From positions 2,356,001-2,420,000 of the forward strand of contig NZ_JACCBB010000001.1 of assembly GCF_013409345.1 (NCBI RefSeq): DNA of 64,000 bases, given 5' to 3'. A model generated the notes under the pieces. The model made no database searches and had not been told where the DNA came from. It saw only the letters and a list, made by a program, of their open reading frames with translations. Below are positions 23,340 to 45,172 of the stretch, piece after piece; positions within the stretch are counted from its first letter, which is position 1; every line of letters begins with the position of its first letter. Origin of the DNA: Kineococcus aurantiacus. Its GTDB lineage: Bacteria; Actinomycetota; Actinomycetes; Actinomycetales; Kineococcaceae. Both the position numbers and the translations under genes were made by a program.

Positions 23340-23520
23340 TTGTCCACTGCCTGGGGACGGCGTGTGGACAGCGGAGCCCGTCGTCCACAGGAGTTGTCCA
23401 CCGATTCGTCCACAGCTTGTGGATGACTGTGGGAAACGCGGCGGGTGGTCCACACCGATGTCCACGGGCTGGGGACGCACGGCGGCCGTTCGCACAGGTG
23501 TGCGAAACCCCTGTGGACAA
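23340..23520. promoter_or_regulatory. DnaA-box cluster outside the dnaA-dnaN region
   Basis: Within 181 bp there is one exact match to TTGTCCACA (reverse strand, 23512-23520) and six single-mismatch boxes: 23340 (TTGTCCACT), 23363 (reverse), 23381 and 23406 (TCGTCCACA), 23394 (TTGTCCACC), 23446 (TGGTCCACA). A further TGTGGATGA lies at 23418. The cluster fills the gap between the glycosyltransferase-like and rhomboid genes (23230-23612), which holds no gene apart from the terminator hairpin. Possible roles are a secondary DnaA-binding or titration locus, or part of a bipartite origin. Confidence 0.6.
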
Positions 23521-26693: not shown

Positions 26694-27206
26694 TCAGTCG
26701 TCGGACAGCGTGACGTGCAGCCCGCCCACGAGGGCGGAGGACACGTTGTAGAGGAACGCCACGATCGTCGACAGCGCCGTGAGGAGCACGACGTCCACCA
26801 CGGCGATGACGGTCGCCAACGAGATGACCTTCCCGAAGCCGACGTAGTCGAGCAGGTCGAAGTCGACCTCCTGGCCCACGACGTCCTTGAGCAGGCCGTT
26901 GAGGTCGGTGAAGACGCCCATGCCGTCCAGGACGCTCCAGATGACCGCCGTCGCCACCACGAGGGCGATGCCCACGGCCACCGACAGCAGGAACGACAGC
27001 TTCGTCACCGACCACGGGTCGACGCGCGCGAGCGTCAGCCGCACCCGCCGGGGCACCGCGTCGACGCCGTTGCGCGGTCGCGCCTGCGGCCCGCCGGCCG
27101 CCGCCCGGCCCGCCTCAGCCGTGGAGCGGGCCGTCTGGCCGGCCGTCTGGCCTGCCTGGGCCGCTGCCTGTGCGGACGAAGCCGTCGCGCGTTCGGCGGG
27201 GGTCAC
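26694..27206 (-). CDS. DUF3566 membrane protein
   Basis: A 170-residue protein with an Ala/Gln/Thr-rich hydrophilic N terminus (about 45 residues) and a DUF3566 domain with two helices: [21 protein letters not shown] (about residues 70-90) and [19 protein letters not shown] (about 136-154). The family motif [11 protein letters not shown] is present. Function is unknown; it is always next to gyrA in actinobacteria. The GTG start overlaps the gyrA stop by 4 bp. Confidence 0.94.
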
Positions 27207-29932
27207 TCGTCACCTCCGGAGTCGGGCTCGCCCGTCGGAGCCTCGCTCGACGGTACGCCATCGCCCGCCCCCACCACAGGGTCGTCCCCGAGGTTCTGCA
27301 CAGGGACTCCACCGATCGGCGCCTCGTCGGCACCCTCGGCGGCGGCCTGGTCGTCCCCGCCGCCGGCGACGTCGGCGAGCGGGTCGTCCGCCCCGGCGGT
27401 CGTGGCCTCGGAGGCCTCCTCGGCCTCCACCTCCTCGTCGATCACCCGTTCGGCGTTGCGGGCCACCGCGAGGATCCGGTCGCTCTTCTCCGGCTTGGCG
27501 AAGGTGACCCCCATGGTGTCGCGGCCCTTGGCCGGCACCTCGTCGACGCGCGAGCGCACGACCCGGCCGGCCTGCATGACCACGAGCACCTCGTCGTCGT
27601 CGGCGACCGTCAGCGCGCCGACGAGGTCACCGCGCTCCTCGGTCAGCTTCGCGACCTTGATCCCCAGCCCACCGCGGCCCTGCTTGCGGTACTCCGCGAT
27701 CGCGGTGCGCTTGGCGTAGCCGAGCTCGGTGACGACGAAGACGTACAGGTCGTCGCGGGCCACCGCCATCGCCAGCAGCTCGTCGTCCCCGCGGAACTTC
27801 ATGCCCGTGACCCCGGAGGTGGCCCGGCCCATGGGGCGCAGGTTCTCGTCGGTCGCCTCGAAGCGCACGCTCATGCCCTTGCGGGAGACGAGGAACAGGT
27901 CCTCGTCCTCGCTGACCAGGGTCGCGGCGAACAGCTCGTCGTCGACCTCCTCGGTGCCGTCGGCCCCCGGGCGCGAGCGCAGGTTGATGGCGATGAGCCC
28001 GCCGGAGCGGTTGGAGTCGTACTCGGCCAGCCGCGTCTTCTTCACGATGCCGCCGCGGGTGGCGAGGACCAGGTACGGCGCCTGCTCGTAGTCCTCGATG
28101 TCGAGGACGGCCACGATCCGCTCCCCCGGCTGGAAGGCCAGCAGGTTCGCGACGTGCTGGCCGCGGCCGTCGCGGCCGCCCTCGGGCAGCTCGTAGCCCT
28201 TGGCGCGGTAGACCCGGCCCAGGTTGGTGAAGAACAGCAGCCAGTGGTGGGTCGTCGTGGTGAAGAAGTGCTCCACGACGTCGTCCTCGCGCAGCGAGGC
28301 CCCCCGCACCCCCCGGCCACCGCGGCGCTGGGCCCGGTACAGGTCGGTGCGGGTGCGCTTGGCGTAGCCGCCGCGGGTCACGGTGACGACGACGTCCTCG
28401 ACGGGGATGAGGTCCTCGGCGGTCATGTCGCCCTCGAAGGGCAGGATCTGCGTCTGGCGCTCGTCGCCGTACCGCTCGACGAGCTCGGCGAGCTCCTCCC
28501 CGACGATCTGCCGCTGCCGCTCGGGGCTGGCCAGGATCGCGTTGAAGTCCTCGATCATCGCCATGAGCGTGTCGTAGCGGTCGGTGAGCCGCTGCCGTTC
28601 CAGGGCGGCCAGGCGGCGCAGCTGCATGTCGAGGATGGCGCGCGCCTGCTCCTCGTCGATGTCCAGCAGCTCCATGAGGCCCTCGCGGGCGGACTCGACC
28701 GTCGCGCTGGCCCGGATGAGGGCGATGACCTCGTCGAGGACGTCGAGCGCCTTGAGCAGACCGCGCAGGATGTGCGCCTCGGCCTCGGCCTTGCGCAGCC
28801 GGAACCGGGTGCGCCGGACGACGACGTCGAGCTGGTGGGTGATCCAGTGCTTGAGGAAGGCATGGATCGGCAGCGTGCGCGGCACCCCGTCGACCAGCGC
28901 CAGCATGTTCGCGCCGAAGTTCGTCTGCAGCTGGGTGTGCTTGTAGAGGTTGTTCAGCACGACCTTCGCGACGGCGTCGCGGCGCAGCACGATGACCAGC
29001 CGCTGACCGGTCTTGCCGGAGGTGTGGTCCTGGACGTCGGCGATGCCGGTGAGCCGGCCGTCGCGGACGAGGTTCGCGATGTTCTCGGCGAGGTTGTCCG
29101 GGTTGACCTGGTACGGCAGCTCGCTGACGACGAGGCAGGTCCGGTTCTGGATCTCCTCGACGGTGACGACGGCCCGCATCGTGATGGACCCGCGGCCGGT
29201 GCGGTAGGCGTCGACGATGCCGCGCTGGCCCAGGATGTGCGCACCGGTCGGGAAGTCCGGGCCCTTGATGCGCTGCAGCATCGCGGTGAGCTGCTCGTCG
29301 TCGGAGGCGGAGGGGTTGTCCAGCAGCCACTTCACGCCGTCGGCGACCTCCCGCAGGTTGTGCGGGGGGATGTTCGTCGCCATGCCGACGGCGATGCCGG
29401 CCGAGCCGTTGACCAGCAGGTTCGGGAACCGGCTGGGCAGCACGTCGGGCTCGGTGGTGTGCCCGTCGTAGTTCGGGGAGAAGTCGACGGTCTCCTCGTC
29501 GATGTCCCGGACCATCTCCATGGCCAGCGGCGCCATCCGGCACTCGGTGTACCGGGGGGCCGCGGCCGGGTCGTTGCCGGGCGAGCCGAAGTTGCCCTGG
29601 CCGTCGACCAGCGGGTAGCGCAGCGACCAGTCCTGCGCGAGGCGGACGAGGGCGTCGTAGATCGAGGAGTCGCCGTGCGGGTGGTAGTGACCCATGACGT
29701 CACCCACGACGCGGGCGCACTTGGAGTACCCGCGGTCGGGGCGGTACCCGCCGTCGTACATCGCGTACAGCACCCGGCGGTGGACGGGCTTGAGACCGTC
29801 CCGCACGTCGGGCAGCGCCCGCGACACGATGACGCTCATCGCGTAGTCGAGGTACGAACGCTGCATCTCGGCCTGCAGGTCGACCTGCTCGACGCGGTCG
29901 CCGGCGGGGGGTTCGGTGGTGCTCTCGCTCAC
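27203..29932 (-). CDS. gyrA: DNA gyrase subunit A
   Basis: A 909-residue breakage-reunion subunit of gyrase. Catalytic Tyr128 is in [11 protein letters not shown], and the quinolone-region sequence [17 protein letters not shown] has Ser89 and Asp93 at the positions of E. coli Ser83 and Asp87. The C-terminal beta-pinwheel includes the GyrA box QRRGGRG (about residue 530), which wraps DNA. A Gly/Asp-rich acidic tail (about 70 residues) follows. GTG start. It is 52 bp downstream of gyrB, with a parS site in the gap. Confidence 0.98.
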
Positions 29933-29965: not shown

Positions 29966-29981
29966 TGTTTCACGTGGAACC
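29966..29981. promoter_or_regulatory. parS site between gyrB and gyrA
   Basis: TGTTTCACGTGGAACC contains the parS core (GTTTCACGTGGAAC, 29967-29980), differing from the consensus GTTTCACGTGAAAC at one base. ParB should bind it. It sits in the 52-bp gyrB-gyrA gap, about 12 kb from the parA cluster on the other side of oriC. Confidence 0.85.
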
Positions 29982-29984
29982 AGG

Positions 29985-32051
29985 TCACACGTCGAGGAAC
30001 CTCACGTCTCGGGCGTTGCGCTGGATGAAGCTGCGGCGGGACTCCACGTCCTCCCCCATGAGGATCGAGAACACCGCGTCCGCCGCGGCGGCGTCCTCCA
30101 GGGTCACCTGCAGCAGGGTGCGGTGGGTGCGGTCCATCGTCGTCTCGGACAGCTCGTCCCAGTTCATCTCGCCCAGACCCTTGTAGCGCTGGGTCCGGCC
30201 CTCCTTGGGCAGCTTCTTGCCGGCGGCCAGACCGGCCTCGATGAGCGCGTCGCGCTCGCGGTCGGAGTAGGCGAACTCGTGGTTCTCCGTGCCGCCCAGC
30301 CACTTGATGCGGTACAGCGGCGGCTGCGCCAGGTACACGTGACCGCCCTCGACGAGGGGGCTCATGTAGCGGAACAGCAGCGTCAGCAGCAGCGTCCGGA
30401 TGTGCTGACCGTCGACGTCGGCGTCGGCCATGATGATGATCTTGTGGTACCGCAGCTTGTCGAGGTTGAAGTCCTCGCCGATGCCGGTGCCGAAGGCCGT
30501 GATGAGCGCCTGCACCTCCTGGTTGCCCAGGGCGCGGTCCAGCCGGGCCTTCTCGACGTTCAGGATCTTCCCGCGGATCGGCAGGATCGCCTGGGTGCGC
30601 GGGTCCCGGCCGCGCGTGGCCGAACCGCCCGCGGAGTCCCCCTCGACGATGAAGACCTCGCACTCGGCGGGGTTGTTGGACTGGCAGTCCTTCAGCTTGC
30701 CCGGCAGCGAGTTGCGCTCCAGCAGCGACTTGCGGCTCGCCTCGCGCGCCTTGCGGGCGGCCTGGCGCGCGATCGAGGCCGACTGCGCCTTCTTCGCGAT
30801 CGTCCAGGCCTCCTTGGGGTTGGCCTGGAACCAGTGCCCGAGGTGCTCGCGGACCTGGGACTGCACGAAGGTGCGGGCCAGGGTGTTGCCCAGCTTCGTC
30901 TTCGTCTGCCCCTCGAACTGCGGCTCGGACAGCTTCACCGAGATGACGGCCGTCAGGCCCTCGCGGATGTCGGAGCCGTCGAGGGACTCGTTCTCCTTGA
31001 GGATGGCCGGCTTGGCCGACCGGGCGTAGTCGATGACCAGGTTCGTCAGCGCCGTGCGGAAACCCGCCTCGTGCGTGCCGCCCTCGGAGGTGTTGATGTT
31101 GTTGGCGTAGGTGAAGACCGCCTCGGAGTAGGCGGTGGTCCACTGCATCGCGATCTCCACCGCGATGCCCTTGTCCTTGTCCTCCGCCTCCAGCGAGATG
31201 ACCGTCTCGTGCAGCGGCTCGTTCTTCTTCTGCGCGTTGATGTGCTTGACGTAGTCGATGAGGCCCTCGTCGTAGCGGTAGCTCACCTCGCGCTGGGGCT
31301 TCTCGTCGGTCGAGCCCTCGGCCGCCTCGTCCTCGGGGTGCGCGCGCTCGTCCTTCAGCGTCAGCGTCAGGCCCTTGTTGAGGAACGCGCGCTGCTGGAA
31401 GCTCGTGCGCAGCGTCTCGTACGAGTAGTCGGTCGTCTCGAAGATGTCCCCGTCGGCCCAGAACGTGATGGTCGTCCCGGTCTCGTCGGTCGCCTCGCCC
31501 TTCTCCAGCGGCGCCAGCGGCACGCCGTGCTCGTAGGACTGGCGCCACGCGAAGCCCTGGCGGCGGACCTCGACGTCCAGCCGCGTCGACAGCGCGTTGA
31601 CGACGGAGCTGCCCACGCCGTGCAGACCGCCGGAGACGGCGTAGCCGCCGCCGCCGAACTTGCCCCCCGCGTGCAGGACCGTCAGGACGACCTCGACGGC
31701 CGGACGGCCCTCACCGGCCATGACGTCGACCGGGATGCCACGGCCGTTGTCGACGACGCGGACGCCGCCGTCGGCCAGCAGCGTCACGTCGATCGTGTCG
31801 CAGTAGCCCGCCAGCGCCTCGTCGACGGAGTTGTCGACGATCTCGGCGACGAGGTGGTGCAGACCGCGCTCCCCCGTGGAGCCGATGTACATGCCGGGAC
31901 GCTTGCGGACGGCCTCGAGACCCTCGAGGACGGTGATGGCGTCGGCGCCGTACTCCGGGTTCGGCGCACCGTCGGGGGCGACCGCGTCGGCCAACGAGGG
32001 GGCGTCCTCCGGGGCGACGCCCTCGGGACCTTGCGTCTCTTCGTCAGGCAC
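29985..32051 (-). CDS. gyrB: DNA gyrase subunit B
   Basis: A 688-residue ATPase subunit of gyrase. GHKL ATPase motifs [12 protein letters not shown] (about residues 70-81), DNGRGIPVD and [15 protein letters not shown] are present, then the TOPRIM domain with [15 protein letters not shown] (about 470-484) and [15 protein letters not shown]. The protein ends [11 protein letters not shown] as in other GyrB. It supplies ATP-driven strand passage with GyrA. The GTG start is at 32051. Confidence 0.98.
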
Positions 32052-36254: not shown

Positions 36255-37136
36255 CAGGCACCGCCTTCCAGTCGTCCTGCGTGTCCAGCCTCGGGGCACC
36301 TGGTCCAGCGGGCGGTCCAGGGAGGCGGCTTCCGACAGTAGTCGAGGCTCCGGGCCGGCGCGCAGGCCCCTCCACCGCCCACCGTCAGCCCCTCCCGCTC
36401 TGGTCACTCAGCGTGACCGTCGGCGGGGAGCGTCGGCACAGCTTGTTCGAACACCACCTCGACCCCGACCGGTCCACCGGTCCGTCCGGGCCGCCTTCCC
36501 CACAGTCAGTCCACACTGGACGTGGGTCGTCGACCTTCACCGTAGAGGGATCAGTCGTCGTAGTCACCCTTGTGCACGCTGTGGACGACGAGGCGTCGTC
36601 GCAGGTCAAAGGCCGATTCGGGCCGTTCTAGGGGTGTGGACGACCCGTGGACCCGTCGGCCCGGCCGTCCACAGGTGCGTGCGCTCGCCGGCCGTCGTCC
36701 ACCGTCGTCCCCAGGCGGTCCCCACGGTGTCCACGCTGCGTCCACGGGGTTGTCCACCGTCGGCGGCAGCTTTGTCCACACGTCTGTCCCCAGGATGTGG
36801 ACAACTGTGGACAGAGCTCGCGGGGGTGGGGACGTCACCGTTCGGGACGCGGTGCTCACCCGCCGGGGCGCTCGGCGCCGGCGGTGGAGGGGGACGGCCC
36901 GGCGACGGCGCGCGGGTGCCCCGGACGCGCGGGGGAAGGGCTCCGTGGGGGCTCAGGGGCTCCCTGAGGCCTCGACGGGCTCCTCCGGCGGCCTGCGGGC
37001 GGCAGCAGGGCCAGGGGAGGCCGGTGGACCCCTCAGCGGGGTCGGGAGGGGTTCGAGCCGGCTGTCAGGCCGTCGGGGACGTCACGGGCCCGCGCCGGGC
37101 GCCCGCACCGCGTCGTGCGGAGCCCCGGGGACGCGG
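36255..37136. other. oriC: Chromosomal replication origin (oriC), dnaN-dnaA intergenic region
   Basis: An 882-bp non-coding region between dnaN and dnaA, the usual actinobacterial origin site. DnaA boxes found by eye: exact TTGTCCACA at 36772-36780 and on the reverse strand at 36796-36804; one-mismatch boxes at 36580, 36635 and 36806 (reverse) and 36750 (forward). Weaker GTCCAC-type boxes fill 36465-36740. A TGTTCGAACA palindrome lies at 36444-36453. The part from 36840 to 37136 is extremely GC-rich and shows no recognised element. No distinct AT-rich unwinding element is obvious; the mildest GC is around 36541-36640. Confidence 0.88.
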
Positions 37137-40043: not shown

Positions 40044-41060
40044 ATGATCGACTTCTTCTACTCCCTGCTGCACCCGATCCAGTGGGTGGTGGCGTGGATC
40101 ATGGTGCGGTTCCACGACCTCTTCACCCTCATCGGGTTCGACCCGGCCGGTGGGGCCGCCTGGTCGCTGTCCATCGTCGGCCTCGTGGTCGTCATCCGCA
40201 TCCTCCTGATCCCGCTGTTCGTCAAGCAGATCAAGGCCATGCGCGGGATGCAGGTCATCCAGCCGGAGATGCGCAAGATCCAGCAGAAGTACAAGGGCAA
40301 GAACGACCCGGCGTCCCGGCAGGCCATGCAGCAGGAGATGATGGCGCTGTACCGCACGTCGGGGACGAACCCGATGGCGAGCTGCCTGCCGATCCTGCTC
40401 CAGTCGCCCATCTTCCTGGCGCTGTTCCACACGCTGAACGGCATCGGTCAGGGCAAGACGATCGGCCCGCTGGACCAGACGCTGGTCGACCAGGCCGACC
40501 AGGCGACGATCTTCGGCGCTCAGCTGTCCGACGTCTTCATGAAGTCGTGGGGCTCGGGCGACTGGAACGCCATCGTCCTGACGGCCGTGATGATCGTCCT
40601 CATGTCTGCGTCGCAGTTCGTCACGCAGAAGCAGCTGATGGCCAAGAACACGTCCTCGGCCTCGATGGAGGGCAACCCCTTCGCGCAGCAGCAGAAGCTG
40701 ATGCTCTACGTGCTGCCGATCATCTTCGCGGTCTCGGGCGTCAACTTCCCCATCGGTGTCCTCCTCTACTGGCTCACGACCAACGTCTGGTCCATGGGGC
40801 AGCAGTTCTTCGTCATCCGCCGCATGCCGAACCCGGGCTCTCTCGCCGAGAAGGAGCTGGAGGAGCGCCGCGCCCGCCGTGCCGCCCGGCGCGGGCAGGT
40901 CCTGAGCACGGACACCCCGGCGGCGAACGGGACCGGGACCACGGCCGAGCACACCACCGCGGCCCCGGCCCGGCGGCAGCGCCAGCAGCCCAAGCGCGGC
41001 AACAGCCGCGAGCAGCGCCGTCCGGGCGGCTCGCGGTCGAGCCAGGGCCCCAACCGCTGA
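40044..41060 (+). CDS. yidC: Membrane protein insertase YidC
   Basis: A 338-residue Oxa1/YidC insertase without the large periplasmic domain of proteobacteria. Helices include FYSLLHPIQWVVAWIMVRFH, SLSIVGLVVVIRILLIPLFV (with the hydrophilic-groove Arg), SCLPILLQSPIFLALFHTLN and LMLYVLPIIFAVSGVNFPIGVLLYWLTTN. The last 70 residues are basic and low-complexity ([15 protein letters not shown]... RRQRQQPKRGNS), able to contact ribosomes. ATG start with GAGAGGAC upstream. Confidence 0.96.
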   Translation: MIDFFYSLLHPIQWVVAWIMVRFHDLFTLIGFDPAGGAAWSLSIVGLVVVIRILLIPLFVKQIKAMRGMQVIQPEMRKIQQKYKGKNDPASRQAMQQEMMALYRTSGTNPMASCLPILLQSPIFLALFHTLNGIGQGKTIGPLDQTLVDQADQATIFGAQLSDVFMKSWGSGDWNAIVLTAVMIVLMSASQFVTQKQLMAKNTSSASMEGNPFAQQQKLMLYVLPIIFAVSGVNFPIGVLLYWLTTNVWSMGQQFFVIRRMPNPGSLAEKELEERRARRAARRGQVLSTDTPAANGTGTTAEHTTAAPARRQRQQPKRGNSREQRRPGGSRSSQGPNR

Positions 41061-41106
41061 CGACCCCCACAGACCAGCTCCACCGCCACACCAGCCAGGA
41101 GGACGT

Positions 41107-41709
41107 GTGAACGACACGACGGACGCGGTCGAGGCGACCCCGGTGACGACCACCGACGTCGAGACGACCGAGGAACCCCGTCGCAAGGGGTCGACGAAGA
41201 GCCGTCTCGAGGAGGAGGGCGACATCGCCGCCGACTACCTCGAGGAGCTCCTCGACATCGTCGACCTCGACGGTGACATCGACATCGACATCGAGAACGG
41301 CCGCGCCTCGGTCGCGATCGTCGCCGACGACGCGGGGACGCCCGCGCTCAAGCGCCTCGTGGGGGACGACGGTGAGGTCCTCGACGCGCTGCAGGAACTC
41401 ACCCGGCTGGCCGTCCAGGCGCAGACCGGCGACCGCACGCGCCTGATGCTGGACGTCGCCGGTCACCGCTCCACCAAGCGGGGCGCGCTGGTCCGCCTGG
41501 CCCAGGAGGTCGTCGCCCGCGTCCAGGCGAGCGGCACCGCCGAGCGCCTCGACCCGATGCCGGCCTTCGAGCGCAAGGTCGTCCACGACGCGGTCGCCGC
41601 GGCCGGCCTGGCGAGCGAGTCCGAGGGGGAGGAGCCGCGCCGCCGCGTCGTCGTGCTGCCCACCCCGGCGGCGACGACCGGTGAGGATGCACAGGCCACG
41701 GACGAGTGA
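41107..41709 (+). CDS. jag: Jag/KhpB RNA-binding protein (KH and R3H domains)
   Basis: A 200-residue protein: an acidic Thr/Glu-rich N terminus, a KH domain (about residues 60-135, VSIVADDAGTPALKRLVGDDGEVLDALQELTRLAVQ-like region with the GxxG equivalent GDDG), and an R3H domain (about 140-185, RLDPMPAFERKVVHDAV). The N-terminal Jag domain of Firmicutes is absent, as usual in actinobacteria. It binds RNA and is linked to envelope growth control. GTG with CAGGAGG upstream; 47 bp after yidC. Confidence 0.93.
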   Translation: MNDTTDAVEATPVTTTDVETTEEPRRKGSTKSRLEEEGDIAADYLEELLDIVDLDGDIDIDIENGRASVAIVADDAGTPALKRLVGDDGEVLDALQELTRLAVQAQTGDRTRLMLDVAGHRSTKRGALVRLAQEVVARVQASGTAERLDPMPAFERKVVHDAVAAAGLASESEGEEPRRRVVVLPTPAATTGEDAQATDE

Positions 41710-41744
41710 CCTGACGTCCGCCCCCCGGCCGATAGGGTGACGGG

Positions 41745-42512
41745 GTGTCGGATGAAGTGCCTGAGGGCGGTGGTGTTCCACGTGGAACACCACCGCCCTC
41801 CGTCGTTCCGGGGGACTCCGCAGTGGTCCCCGTCGAAGAGATCACCCGGGTCTTCGGGGATCGCGCGGGCAAGGCCGAGGTCTACCGCGACCTGCTCGCC
41901 GGTGCCGGTGTCGAGCGGGGCCTGATCGGTCCGCGGGAGGTGCCGCGCCTGTGGGACCGCCACCTGCTGAACTGCGCCTACCTCGGCGAGGTGATCGACG
42001 AGGGCGCGTCGGTGATCGACATCGGGTCCGGTGCGGGGCTACCGGGCATCCCGCTGGCGCTGGCCCGCCCTGACGTCCAGGTGCGGCTCGTCGAGCCCCT
42101 GGAGCGCCGGTACGCCTTCCTGCGCGAGGCCATCACGGAGCTGGACCTGCGCGACCAGGTGGCCGTGGCCCGGGGACGAGCCGAGGACGTGCGCGGCGAG
42201 TTCTCCGCCTCGGTCGTCACCGCCCGGGCCGTCGCGCCGCTGGCGACCCTGTACGGCTGGGCCCTGCCGCTCGTGGTGACCGGTGGGCACCTCATCGCCA
42301 TCAAGGGCCGGAGCGCCTCCGAGGAGATCGCCGCCGCGGCGGGGACACTGCAGGCGATGGGCATCACCGAGACGCCGGAAGTCCTCCGGGTGGGTCCGGA
42401 CGAGGAGTCCGGCACCACCGTCGTCCGCGTCGCGCGGGGACACGGGCCTCTGCGTTCTCCCTCGGCGCCCACGACTCCGAAACGTCGGTCGCCGCGCGCT
42501 CGGCGCCGTTGA
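41745..42512 (+). CDS. rsmG: 16S rRNA (guanine-N7)-methyltransferase RsmG (GidB)
   Basis: A 255-residue SAM-dependent methyltransferase for m7G527 of 16S rRNA. The motif VIDIGSGAGLPGIPLALARPD is at about residues 88-108, preceded by LWDRHLLNCA; ARAVAPLATLYGWALPLV and IAIKGRSASEEI complete the fold. The first 30 residues (EGGGVPRGTPPP) are extra, lie before the domain, and are encoded by a parS-containing palindrome. A start further downstream (GTG at 41823, just after the palindrome region) would also keep the whole domain. The C terminus is basic (PKRRSPRARRR). Confidence 0.94.
   Translation: MSDEVPEGGGVPRGTPPPSVVPGDSAVVPVEEITRVFGDRAGKAEVYRDLLAGAGVERGLIGPREVPRLWDRHLLNCAYLGEVIDEGASVIDIGSGAGLPGIPLALARPDVQVRLVEPLERRYAFLREAITELDLRDQVAVARGRAEDVRGEFSASVVTARAVAPLATLYGWALPLVVTGGHLIAIKGRSASEEIAAAAGTLQAMGITETPEVLRVGPDEESGTTVVRVARGHGPLRSPSAPTTPKRRSPRARRR
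41763..41800. repeat. 38-bp perfect palindrome centred on a parS site
   Basis: Bases 41763-41800 equal their own reverse complement without a mismatch; the centre is TGTTCCACGTGGAACA (41774-41789), a parS variant with both arms GTTCC. It covers codons 7-19 of rsmG as annotated. ParB binding is expected from the core; the extended symmetry is unusual and could allow cruciform formation. Confidence 0.85.
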
Positions 42513-42533
42513 TCCATGGAAGGGAACGAACGC

Positions 42534-43988
42534 GTGACGCAGCTGGGCTGGTTCGGGCGACCCGCAACGGGGAACCACGGGCAGCTGGGGTGGCTCTCGG
42601 CGCACCCGGCCACCGATGTTCCACGTGAAACGGAGACGATCGCCGAGCCGGAGGTCGCCGTCGTTCCACGTGAAACCACCGCTCCAGTCGAGCCGACCGC
42701 TCCGGTCGAGCCGGCCGCTCCGGTTCAGCCGGTCGAGCCAGCCGAGCTGGCCGCGCCCGCTGCGGTCGAAGACACCCCGATCGAGACGACCCTCGGTGTT
42801 TCACGTGAAACGGTCGAGGTGTCTCAGTCTGCTCCGCCCGCCGACGTCCCGTCGACGCCCGGCGACGCCGAGCCGACCGTGGCTCTCCTCGACGCTCCCG
42901 ACGTCGATGTTCCACGTGAAACGCTGGCGCCCGTCGTCCAGCTCCACGAGGTACTCCCGGAGACCGCGCCGGAGTCGGAGGAGAGCTTCGAGGTTGAAGA
43001 CCAGGTTCCCGCGCCCGTTTCACGTGAAACGCCCCCGGCGCGCGCGGTCGAGCGGTTCCCCCGTCCCACCCAGACGCGCATCATGACGATCGCCAACCAG
43101 AAGGGTGGCGTGGGGAAGACGACGACGGCGGTCAACCTCGCCTCGGCGCTCTCGGCGGCGGGCCTGAAGGTGCTCGTCCTCGACCTGGACCCGCAGGGCA
43201 ACGCCTCGACCGCCCTCGGCATCGACCACCACTCGGGCGTCCCGGGCATGTACGAGGTGCTCGTCGAGGGCAAGCCGCTGGGGGAGGTCGTGCAGAAGTG
43301 CGAGGAGGCGCCCGACCTGTGGTGCGCCCCCGCGACCGTCGACCTGGCCGGCGCGGAGATCGAGCTCGTCTCGATGGTCGCCCGTGAGTCGCGCCTGCAG
43401 CGGGCGGTGGCGAAGTACTTCAAGGGGCTCGCGCAGGCCGGTGAGCGGCGGGTGGACTACGTCCTCATCGACTGCCCGCCCAGCCTGGGGCTGCTGACCA
43501 TCAACGCCTTCGTCGCGGCGCCCGAGGTGCTGATCCCCATCCAGTGCGAGTACTACGCGTTGGAGGGGCTGAGCCAGCTGCTGGCCAACATCGAACTCAT
43601 CCAGGAGCACCTCAACCCGGACCTGGCCGTCACGACCATCCTGCTGACCATGTACGACGGCCGCACGCGCCTGGCGGCGCAGGTCGTCGAGGAGGTCCGG
43701 CAGCACTTCGGGGAGCAGGTGCTGCGCTCGCTGGTCCCGCGGTCGGTGCGCATCTCCGAGGCGCCCAGCCACGGCCAGACGGTCATGGCCTACGACCCGC
43801 TGTCCTCGGGGGCGCTGGCCTACCTGGAGGCGGCGCGCGAAATGGCCCAGCGTGGCGTGCACGAGGGTGCCGAGGTCGAGGGGGATGCTGGCGTGGGCGC
43901 GCCGCCCGCGGTGGCTGACCCGTGGGCGCGGTGGACGGACGGCCTGGCGACACGACGCGGTACCGCGTCGAAGGAAGGTGGAGCGTGA
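42534..43988 (+). CDS. parA: Chromosome partitioning ATPase ParA with long parS-encoding N-terminal extension
   Basis: A 484-residue ParA/Soj ATPase. The catalytic domain starts near residue 180 with [17 protein letters not shown] (deviant Walker A), then [21 protein letters not shown] and [17 protein letters not shown]. The first 175 residues are a Pro/Glu/Val-rich disordered extension with five V(P/S)RET motifs, each translated from a parS site in the same frame; many ParA proteins have far shorter N termini. The GTG at 42534 is preferred because GGAAGGGAA precedes it; an in-frame ATG at 42516 would add 6 residues. ParA segregates origins with ParB, whose gene overlaps its end by 4 bp. Confidence 0.95.
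42617..42632. promoter_or_regulatory. parS site 1 in parA
   Basis: TGTTCCACGTGAAACG; core GTTCCACGTGAAAC (42618-42631), one base from the GTTTCACGTGAAAC consensus. It encodes V-P-R-E-T in parA. Confidence 0.9.
42663..42676. promoter_or_regulatory. parS site 2 in parA
   Basis: GTTCCACGTGAAAC, one base from the consensus, encoding V-P-R-E-T. It lies 45 bp after site 1. Confidence 0.9.
42797..42812. promoter_or_regulatory. parS site 3 in parA (consensus)
   Basis: TGTTTCACGTGAAACG holds the exact consensus core GTTTCACGTGAAAC (42798-42811), encoding V-S-R-E-T. Confidence 0.95.
42909..42922. promoter_or_regulatory. parS site 4 in parA
   Basis: GTTCCACGTGAAAC, one base from the consensus, encoding V-P-R-E-T. 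Confidence 0.9.
43017..43030. promoter_or_regulatory. parS site 5 in parA (consensus)
   Basis: GTTTCACGTGAAAC, an exact consensus core, encoding V-S-R-E-T. It lies about 50 bp before the codons of the ATPase domain. Confidence 0.95.
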
Positions 43989-45172
43989 GCGACAAGCGAC
44001 GTGGTCTGGGCCGTGGGCTCGGTGCCCTCATCCCCAGCGGGGGACCGGCGACCACCACGGCGAACCGGACCGGTGCCGGGACGTCCACCGTCCCGCCCGC
44101 CATGCGGCCGGCGGCCCGCCCGTTCGACGTCTTCTTCGACCAGCGTCCCGTCGAGGAGCCGGTCGTCGAGGAGGCCCACGAGGAGCGCGTCGGCGACCTG
44201 GCTGTCGTGACGACCGACGTCCCGGTTCAGGAGGCGCCCGAGGCGCCGGCGGTTCAGGAGCTCCTCCCGGAAGCCGTGGACGCCCCCCAGGAGCCCGAAC
44301 AGCCGCAGGCGGCAGCCGAGGCGGCGGCAGCGTCCCTCGTGGCCGCTGACGACCTCGTGGACGTCCCGGGCGCCCGCTTCGCGGAGATCCCCGTCGCGGC
44401 CATCACGCCGAACCCGCGGCAGCCGCGGACGGTGTTCGACGAGGACGACCTGGCCGAGCTCGTGCACTCGATCCGCGAGATCGGCGTGCTGCAGCCCATC
44501 GTCGTCCGGCCCGTGGCGGCCGCCGAGGACGGCTCGCCGCGCTACGAGCTCGTCATGGGGGAGCGGCGCTGGCGCGCCACGACGGAGGCCGGCTTCGCCA
44601 CCGTCCCCGCGATCGTCCGGGAGACCGCCGACGACGACCTGCTGCGCGACGCGCTGCTGGAGAACCTGCACCGCAGCCAGCTGAACCCCCTGGAGGAGGC
44701 GGCGGCCTACCAGCAGCTGCTGGAGGACTTCGGCTGCACCCACGAGGACCTCGCCTCGCGCATCGGCCGCTCCCGGCCGCAGATCAGCAACACGCTGCGC
44801 CTCATGAAGCTGCCGCCCCTGGTGCAGCGCCGGGTGGCGGCGGGTGTCCTCAGCGCCGGCCACGCGCGGGCGCTGCTGTCGCTGGAGGACGGCGCGGCGA
44901 TGGAACGCCTCGCGCAGCGCGTCGTCGCCGAGGGGCTCTCGGTCCGAGCCGTGGAGGAGATGATCGCCCTCGGCGACGCCGAGACCGCCCCGCGCCGCCG
45001 CAACCCGGTCCAGCCGCAGCCCGAGCTGGAGGCGCGCGCCACGCAGCTCGCGGACCGGCTCGACACCCGGGTGAAGATCACGATGGGTCGCACCCGGGGT
45101 CGGCTCACGGTCGACTTCGCCGGCGAGGAGGACCTCGACCGGATCCTGCGGCTGCTCGGCAGCGCGAACTAG
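43985..45172 (+). CDS. parB: Chromosome partitioning protein ParB
   Basis: A 395-residue ParB. N terminus [18 protein letters not shown] contains the ParA-stimulating LGRGLGALI motif. A disordered Glu/Ala/Pro linker (about 100 residues) follows, then the ParB/Srx CTPase domain ([38 protein letters not shown]), the HTH ([24 protein letters not shown]) and a C-terminal dimerisation domain. It binds the parS sites listed here and spreads as a CTP clamp. GTG overlaps the parA stop (GTGA). Its TAG stop shares CTAG with the convergent ddl stop. Confidence 0.97.

Follow-up and report, generated by a model that had tools for sequence, protein, structure and literature searches.

Why does the gene for the segregation ATPase of the soil bacterium Kineococcus aurantiacus read the pentapeptide V(P/S)RET five times, in one frame and each time across a parS site, and is it the DNA or the peptide that is being conserved? 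The locus lies within a 64,000-nucleotide stretch of the chromosome (the window; positions 2,356,001 to 2,420,000 of contig NZ_JACCBB010000001.1), where perfect matches to the 14-mer GTTYCACGTGRAAC occupy 42618-42631, 42663-42676, 42798-42811, 42909-42922 and 43017-43030 on the forward strand, all five inside parA. The first, second and fourth are spelled GTTCCACGTGAAAC and read VPRET, the third and fifth are spelled GTTTCACGTGAAAC and read VSRET, and all follow the parA frame as GTT YCA CGT GAA ACN. An earlier note, made from the sequence alone, had described five such sites in one frame of the ParA N-terminal extension, a description that is borne out with its coordinates within one base.

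The host gene, parA (42534-43988, forward strand, GTG start; Pfam AAA_31, 6e-55), encodes a chromosomal ParA ATPase with a deviant Walker A box (KGGVGKTT) and an ATPase core at 43080-43850. Directly downstream lies parB (43985-45172, forward strand; ParB_N, HTH_ParB and ParB_C domains), whose GTG start overlaps the parA stop. The GTG at 42534 was chosen as the parA start on the basis of a Shine-Dalgarno-like GGAAGGGA and of a similar N-terminus in 12 genomes, with the ATG at 42516 as an in-frame alternative. Upstream is rsmG (gidB; 41745-42512, forward strand; TIGR00138, 9.6e-35). A -10-like TAGGGT at 41733-41738 stands six bases 5' of the rsmG GTG, and similar elements were seen by eye in 11 loci; its position suggests that this start is leaderless. 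An Rfam scan of 41000-44200 returned no match.

Two further perfect sites, absent from the earlier list, bring the window to seven: one in the rsmG N-terminus (41775-41788, forward strand; GTTCCACGTGGAAC, read VPRGT) and one (29967-29980, forward strand) between gyrB (29985-32051) and gyrA (27203-29932), both on the reverse strand. Against a strict 16-mer the five parA sites have one to three mismatches each, and at up to three mismatches the window holds 7 matches to the 16-mer (0.01 expected from shuffles) and 8 to the 14-mer (0.68 expected). The whole genome (5.03 Mb, two contigs) holds eight perfect sites and none with exactly one mismatch, while matches with two mismatches are background (28 in the control against 47 in all) and the reversed-pattern control gives no perfect match in this genome. 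A chance or compositional origin of the sites, to which we assign next to no probability, is ruled out by these match counts. Nothing was found in its favour, and the A/T-ending codons within a GC-rich gene and the presence of such sites in all 12 genomes of the family likewise speak against it. A tally of bases flanking parS gives T at -1 in 20 of 45.

Seven of the eight genomic sites fall within about 13 kb around dnaA-dnaN. The gap between these genes (36408-37136) is the probable oriC, which places the parA cluster about 6 kb away; DnaA boxes of the form TTGTCCACA stand in it at 36772 and 36796, and one more lies at 23512. The five parA sites thus have the attributes of chromosomal parS: a match to the palindrome at every site, clustering near the origin and a cognate ParB gene directly 3' of parA. 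The eighth genomic site is probably a chance match; it lies about 8 kb past the window end and 29 kb from the last parA site, and reads FHVE in a frame of ordinary codons.

Codon usage bears directly on whether DNA or peptide is conserved. Across 1,076 codons of yidC, jag, rsmG and parA 3' of the linker (the table was built without parB), GTT, CCA and TCA are absent and GC3 is 0.946. Given VPRET or VSRET, the parS spelling would have a probability of about 5e-7 per site, calculated with pseudocounts. We then surveyed 259 related loci, a non-random set made up of the best 80 nearest named loci, 59 best matches and 120 chosen for spread, of which 243 were parsed by a ParA core motif; as the loci are related, counts over them are not independent. 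Within 650 nt upstream of the ParA core these 243 loci contain 253 V(S/P)R(E/G)T peptides, of which 238 are perfect parS sites, 15 are one base off and none is further off. With near-identical loci removed (236 left) the numbers are 226, 14 and none. A looser motif parses 14 of the 16 remaining loci; these bring seven more peptides, each of them a perfect parS and in that same frame. Class counts leave out parS more than 650-700 nt upstream of the core, and family counts leave out L001 and L002, which repeat L087 and L088.

Twelve of the 15 one-off sites share a single change or its mirror, GTTTCCCGTGAAAC or GTTTCACGGGAAAC (L004, L095, L097, L122, L123, L126, L133, L145, L218, L232, L249 and L256), and this recurrent variant may be a working alternative site.

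Turnover within the family points the same way. The 12 Kineococcaceae carry 47 parS sites in ParA from start to core, all in one frame, together with two of the 15 one-base-off peptides (L086 and L092) and, in L084, a related stretch reading VSRDS. In a comparison of their ParA N-termini, a kind of check that the earlier note had proposed for conserved sites or peptides, one position, that of the fifth parA site in the window, is kept in 9 of the 12; the number of sites varies from three to five within the genus, and their places vary too. At the kept site GTT, CGT and GAA are invariant, with none of these codons ending in G or C in any of the nine copies, whereas each of the 15 codons upstream of it is represented by five to nine different codons. 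Where two relatives lack parS at the homologue of the fourth site the peptide is lost too, the stretch reading VVDET (L082) or RIEQP (L083). Within parS the residues vary where the site is degenerate, between Ser and Pro and between Glu and Gly. Among the named loci listed, those of Kineococcus vitellinus and Kineococcus sp. TRM81007 are nearest to the window, and two further genomes of the genus share sites and extension with them.

The peptide is also found outside the ParA linker. In the RsmG tail, 54 of 65 open-frame parS upstream of the methyltransferase motif read VSRET-like, and a start codon could come from 7 of the remaining 11; these counts do not fix the rsmG start for every locus, and seven sites just 5' of the open rsmG frame fall outside the 65. 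In the ParB linker the same reading is taken by 43 of 46 parS, counted in loci whose flanks were long enough and among which a few are near-duplicates; of the three exceptions, two come from Kineococcaceae and read FHVE. Within the ParA ATPase core itself, ten loci (L006, L011, L017, L050, L052, L068, L076, L151, L152 and L155) have a parS at +297, where the conserved protein stretch S(L/M)VSRETRL accommodates it. As parS writes this peptide into RsmG and ParB as well, a function of V(P/S)RET specific to ParA appears unlikely. In six loci (L219, L222, L224, L231, L240 and L241) the parA parS, at -141 to -225 of the ParA core, appears to contain the TGA stop of rsmG, which overlaps parA there.

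The rsmG site has a structure of its own. A 38-bp perfect palindrome (41763-41800) is centred on it and co-varies across 11 loci from the genus, which give 10 distinct rows, with 5 of 17 pairs changed on both sides and 98.2% of cells pairing. None of 500 shuffles reached its covariation score, although 101 of 500 reached its number of further pair types, and as RNA the region folds with a z of -5.5. It may be a terminator, an RNA hairpin or a product of palindrome correction. Elsewhere, 29 of 689 parS have 12 of 12 flanking pairs (near-duplicates and the 11 loci counted), with hardly any of these long palindromes in the parA linker. Such palindromes occur in other actinomycetes at, relative to the ParA core, +1984 in L010, +1970 and +2816 in L033, +2271 in L006 and other places, some about where parB should end, and those parS may be the tips of terminator hairpins.

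If the peptide is not what is conserved in the ParA extension, is the extension translated at all, and what in it is conserved? From the GTG at 42534 to the ATPase core the extension has 182 residues; the earlier note was right that it exists and put its length at about 175. In all 12 Kineococcaceae, the window's genome included, it consists of a paired LGW motif, a linker of very variable length and sequence, a conserved stretch (RFPRPTETR in most of the 12) and the core. In the window the pair (LGWFG ... LGWL; 42543-42596, forward strand) is followed by a variable Pro/Glu-rich linker, and its residues G5, W6, G19 and W20 are invariant in 12 of 12. The conserved element of the extension is this N-terminal GW pair and not V(P/S)RET.

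The alternative that ParA starts near residue 180, leaving the sites in upstream non-coding DNA, gains something from ParA proteins outside Actinomycetota, most of which begin close to the Walker A box (PMC9298525, PMC2346475), and from the way starts were chosen: those in the 12 genomes were picked with help of the first GW motif, a choice that partly builds in its invariance at residue 6. Independent evidence from the pair is the presence of the first motif and the second copy, which played no part in the choice. Against this alternative stand the GTG that precedes the GW pair in all 12 genomes, in a frame that stays open as far as the core, a codon-position GC of 82/54/85% in the extension outside the parS sites, and the occurrence of at least two GW copies in 53 of 243 loci (one copy in 18, 71 in total) when the reversed motif occurs twice in none of the 243 and once in a single locus. 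We conclude from these patterns that the extension is very probably translated and that an untranslated extension, which the earlier note had named as grounds for withdrawing its view, is very unlikely. If a peptide of the extension binds a partner, the paired LGW(P/F), found at the start of actinomycete ParA extensions, is a better candidate than V(P/S)RET.

The linker itself is probably disordered. Since an AlphaFold model of ParA has low confidence throughout (mean pLDDT 42.9), this reading draws on the composition of the linker and its lack of conservation. One relative, L084, has a long EPVA repeat run in its linker, and slippage is the probable cause of changes in linker length.

The protein nevertheless leaves a mark on the sites. 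All 94 parS between the first GW motif and the ParA core, in 44 loci, lie in frame 0, and the FHVK frame is equally open at these 94 sites yet unused. For a single gene, five sites in one frame are less striking, because, with the letters of these sites, one of the three frames holds a TGA stop. When the wider region upstream of parA is taken in, 55 parS use the FHVK frame; the majority belong to loci with Streptomyces in the title, and 54 of the 55 have NTG, a possible start codon, against 96 of 228 frame-0 sites with suitable letters. The third frame is represented by one site (L031). This uniformity could be inherited rather than selected, and common descent may explain part of it.

Half-sites are also asymmetric. 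Among the 47 Kineococcaceae ParA sites, 33 have C in the 5' half and 4 have G in the 3' half. The bias runs the same way in all 12 genomes, such that Pro and Glu are commoner in ParA at the letters parS leaves free. A G half-site occurs in 6 of 11 RsmG sites, but RsmG is unfit as a Glu/Gly control because its parS sits in the co-varying palindrome, which favours symmetric half-sites. As ParB reads a palindrome and should not cause asymmetry, a preference of the protein for Pro and Glu would be the simplest reading, although linker composition or a mutational strand bias could also account for the excess. Thus, besides ParB, either the protein side or a mutational strand bias appears to act on the half-sites. 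Taken together, frame rule and residue bias suggest a protein-level filter and no more.

What is new here is the amplification of parS in parA. In seven Kineococcaceae genomes, 28 of 44 perfect parS lie in the ParA extension, compared with 48 of 395 in ParA for 71 other genomes of the order. In this comparison a site counted wherever it lay in frame, in an open frame and no more than 1,050 nt away, and the counts are an upper bound for true coding sites. Adding 12 genomes parsed later gives, summed by hand, 54 of 436 in 83. Of 92 other genomes 21 were left out (6 without a parA match, 14 unparsed and 1 further). One or no parA site is found in 62 of the 71, and one genome outside Kineococcaceae (G060) also reaches four. 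In the wider, non-random set of 236 distinct loci, frame-0 sites number none in 75, one in 119, two in 27 and at least three in 15.

We consider it very likely that the five sites are predicted ParB-loading parS that act as DNA, with V(P/S)RET a by-product and the ParA linker their carrier. The sites, their frame and codons, their turnover, the frame rule and the amplification are read directly in the DNA. The linker would carry parS because it lies near oriC and tolerates an inserted pentapeptide, and V(P/S)RET would be a by-product because the 14-bp requirement fixes four rare A/T-ending codons per site. The protein would filter second, taking a site in the hydrophilic V-x-R-E-T frame, accepting the FHVK frame where parS can supply a start codon, and seemingly favouring Pro and Glu among the free letters. 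In Kineococcaceae the usual zero to two parA sites of actinomycetes would have multiplied to between three and five, and parA coding sequence would thereby make up most of the centromere. By established parABS biology, ParB-CTP clamps would load at the cluster and slide, building a partition complex about 6 kb from oriC that would recruit SMC and be moved by ParA. The earlier proposal that a DNA requirement has shaped a protein segment is thus strongly supported, by parS codons set against 94.6% GC3 and by the lack of any peptide more than one base off.

Two other explanations were weighed. V(P/S)RET might itself, as a short motif, bind to ParB, to some polar protein or to the membrane, with DNA and peptide both selected. 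The single frame of the 94 linker sites, the excess of Glu over Gly and of Pro over Ser beyond symmetric-site expectation in the same direction in 12 of 12 genomes, and the 15 peptides that persist one base off parS would all fit such a dual role. A short linear motif would, in addition, be kept under free codon change and limited to one protein family, but none of the 253 peptides is more than one base from parS and the identical peptide is written into RsmG and ParB. With number and place varying between three and five within the genus, and with the GW pair as the conserved part of the extension, we regard selection on the peptide as improbable; that the repeated peptide has a function, as the earlier note had also allowed, is not supported, since it tracks the DNA site.

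ParB loading in 5' parA might also hinder transcription and tie the ParA level to ParB occupancy, which the earlier note had raised as a coupling of ParB loading to parA expression. The first parS lies 84 nt past the start codon, autoregulation has been proposed in Mycobacterium bovis BCG, both at its parA site and at the one in the gidB promoter (PMC2346475), and two intergenic parS repress their neighbours in Pseudomonas aeruginosa (PMC7022226). Against it, the 62 genomes of the order with at most one parA site lack such a cluster, and the effect of ParB on nearby transcription is reported to be limited in Streptococcus pneumoniae and Vibrio cholerae (PMC7174722). We find autoregulation doubtful as the explanation of the cluster, if less so than selection on the peptide; it is compatible with sites that act as DNA, as an added effect.

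A broader reading, to which we give an even chance, joins these observations. Actinomycete parS would be written preferentially in one frame: in the disordered tails that the ori-proximal genes rsmG, parA and parB encode it would read V-x-R-E-T, with FHVK taken where the site can also provide a start codon. Kineococcaceae would then have moved about two thirds of the centromere into the parA linker, which would be maintained as a parS carrier and would make the ATPase gene inseparable from its own centromere.

These findings offer a clean natural case of a DNA-binding requirement writing protein sequence, in which residues shift where parS is degenerate and silent positions hardly move. They provide a simple rule, of frame and codons, for spotting coding parS in actinomycetes, and a warning that V(S/P)RET is not to be read as a protein motif. 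Additionally, Kineococcus emerges as a genus whose centromere largely coincides with its segregation ATPase gene, and as a place to test the coupling of ParB loading to parA expression.

In the literature searched we came across neither the frame rule nor a parA with several parS, although an earlier report of multiple coding sites, or of such sites in Streptomyces, is possible; one paper (PMC2346475) was the sole one found to place parS in the parA coding region, no title among the matches listed for Kineococcus and parS concerned parS, and no paper with VSRET stood among the best matches listed. Known systems share parts of the arrangement. In Corynebacterium glutamicum, parS1-10 cluster on one side of oriC as here, and ParB and SMC loading have been demonstrated for them experimentally, but nine of the ten are intergenic and one lies in trpCF (PMC7083940). 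Streptomyces parS are likewise biased to one side of oriC; unlike here, they are spread widely, with 11-65 predicted per chromosome, and do not concentrate in parA (PMC8743542, PMC4852455). Most sampled Streptomyces parA genes have one VSRET site and one at a possible start codon, and the earlier statement that single VSRET-type parS occur in the parA of relatives, Streptomyces included, is confirmed in the sampled loci.

Mycobacterium offers two comparisons. The ParA N-terminal region of M. smegmatis binds DivIVA (PMC9298525, citing Pioro 2019); like the protein described here, that ParA has an N-terminal extension, whose start matters for the polar partner, but one of 20-25 residues against 182 (PMC9298525). 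A link between that DivIVA-binding region and the GW pair is a guess on our part. A parS lies within the parA coding region of M. bovis BCG, with a similar position in M. smegmatis (Casart 2008, PMC2346475), and these species share with Kineococcus a parS in parA, an unusually long ParA N-terminus and a site near gidB (PMC2346475). For the single mycobacterial parA site a coupling of ParB loading to parA expression has already been proposed (PMC2346475), and no frame or codon argument was found in that account (PMC2346475). Those mycobacteria have two genomic parS, of which a single one lies in parA; Kineococcus aurantiacus has five in parA (PMC2346475 for the former).
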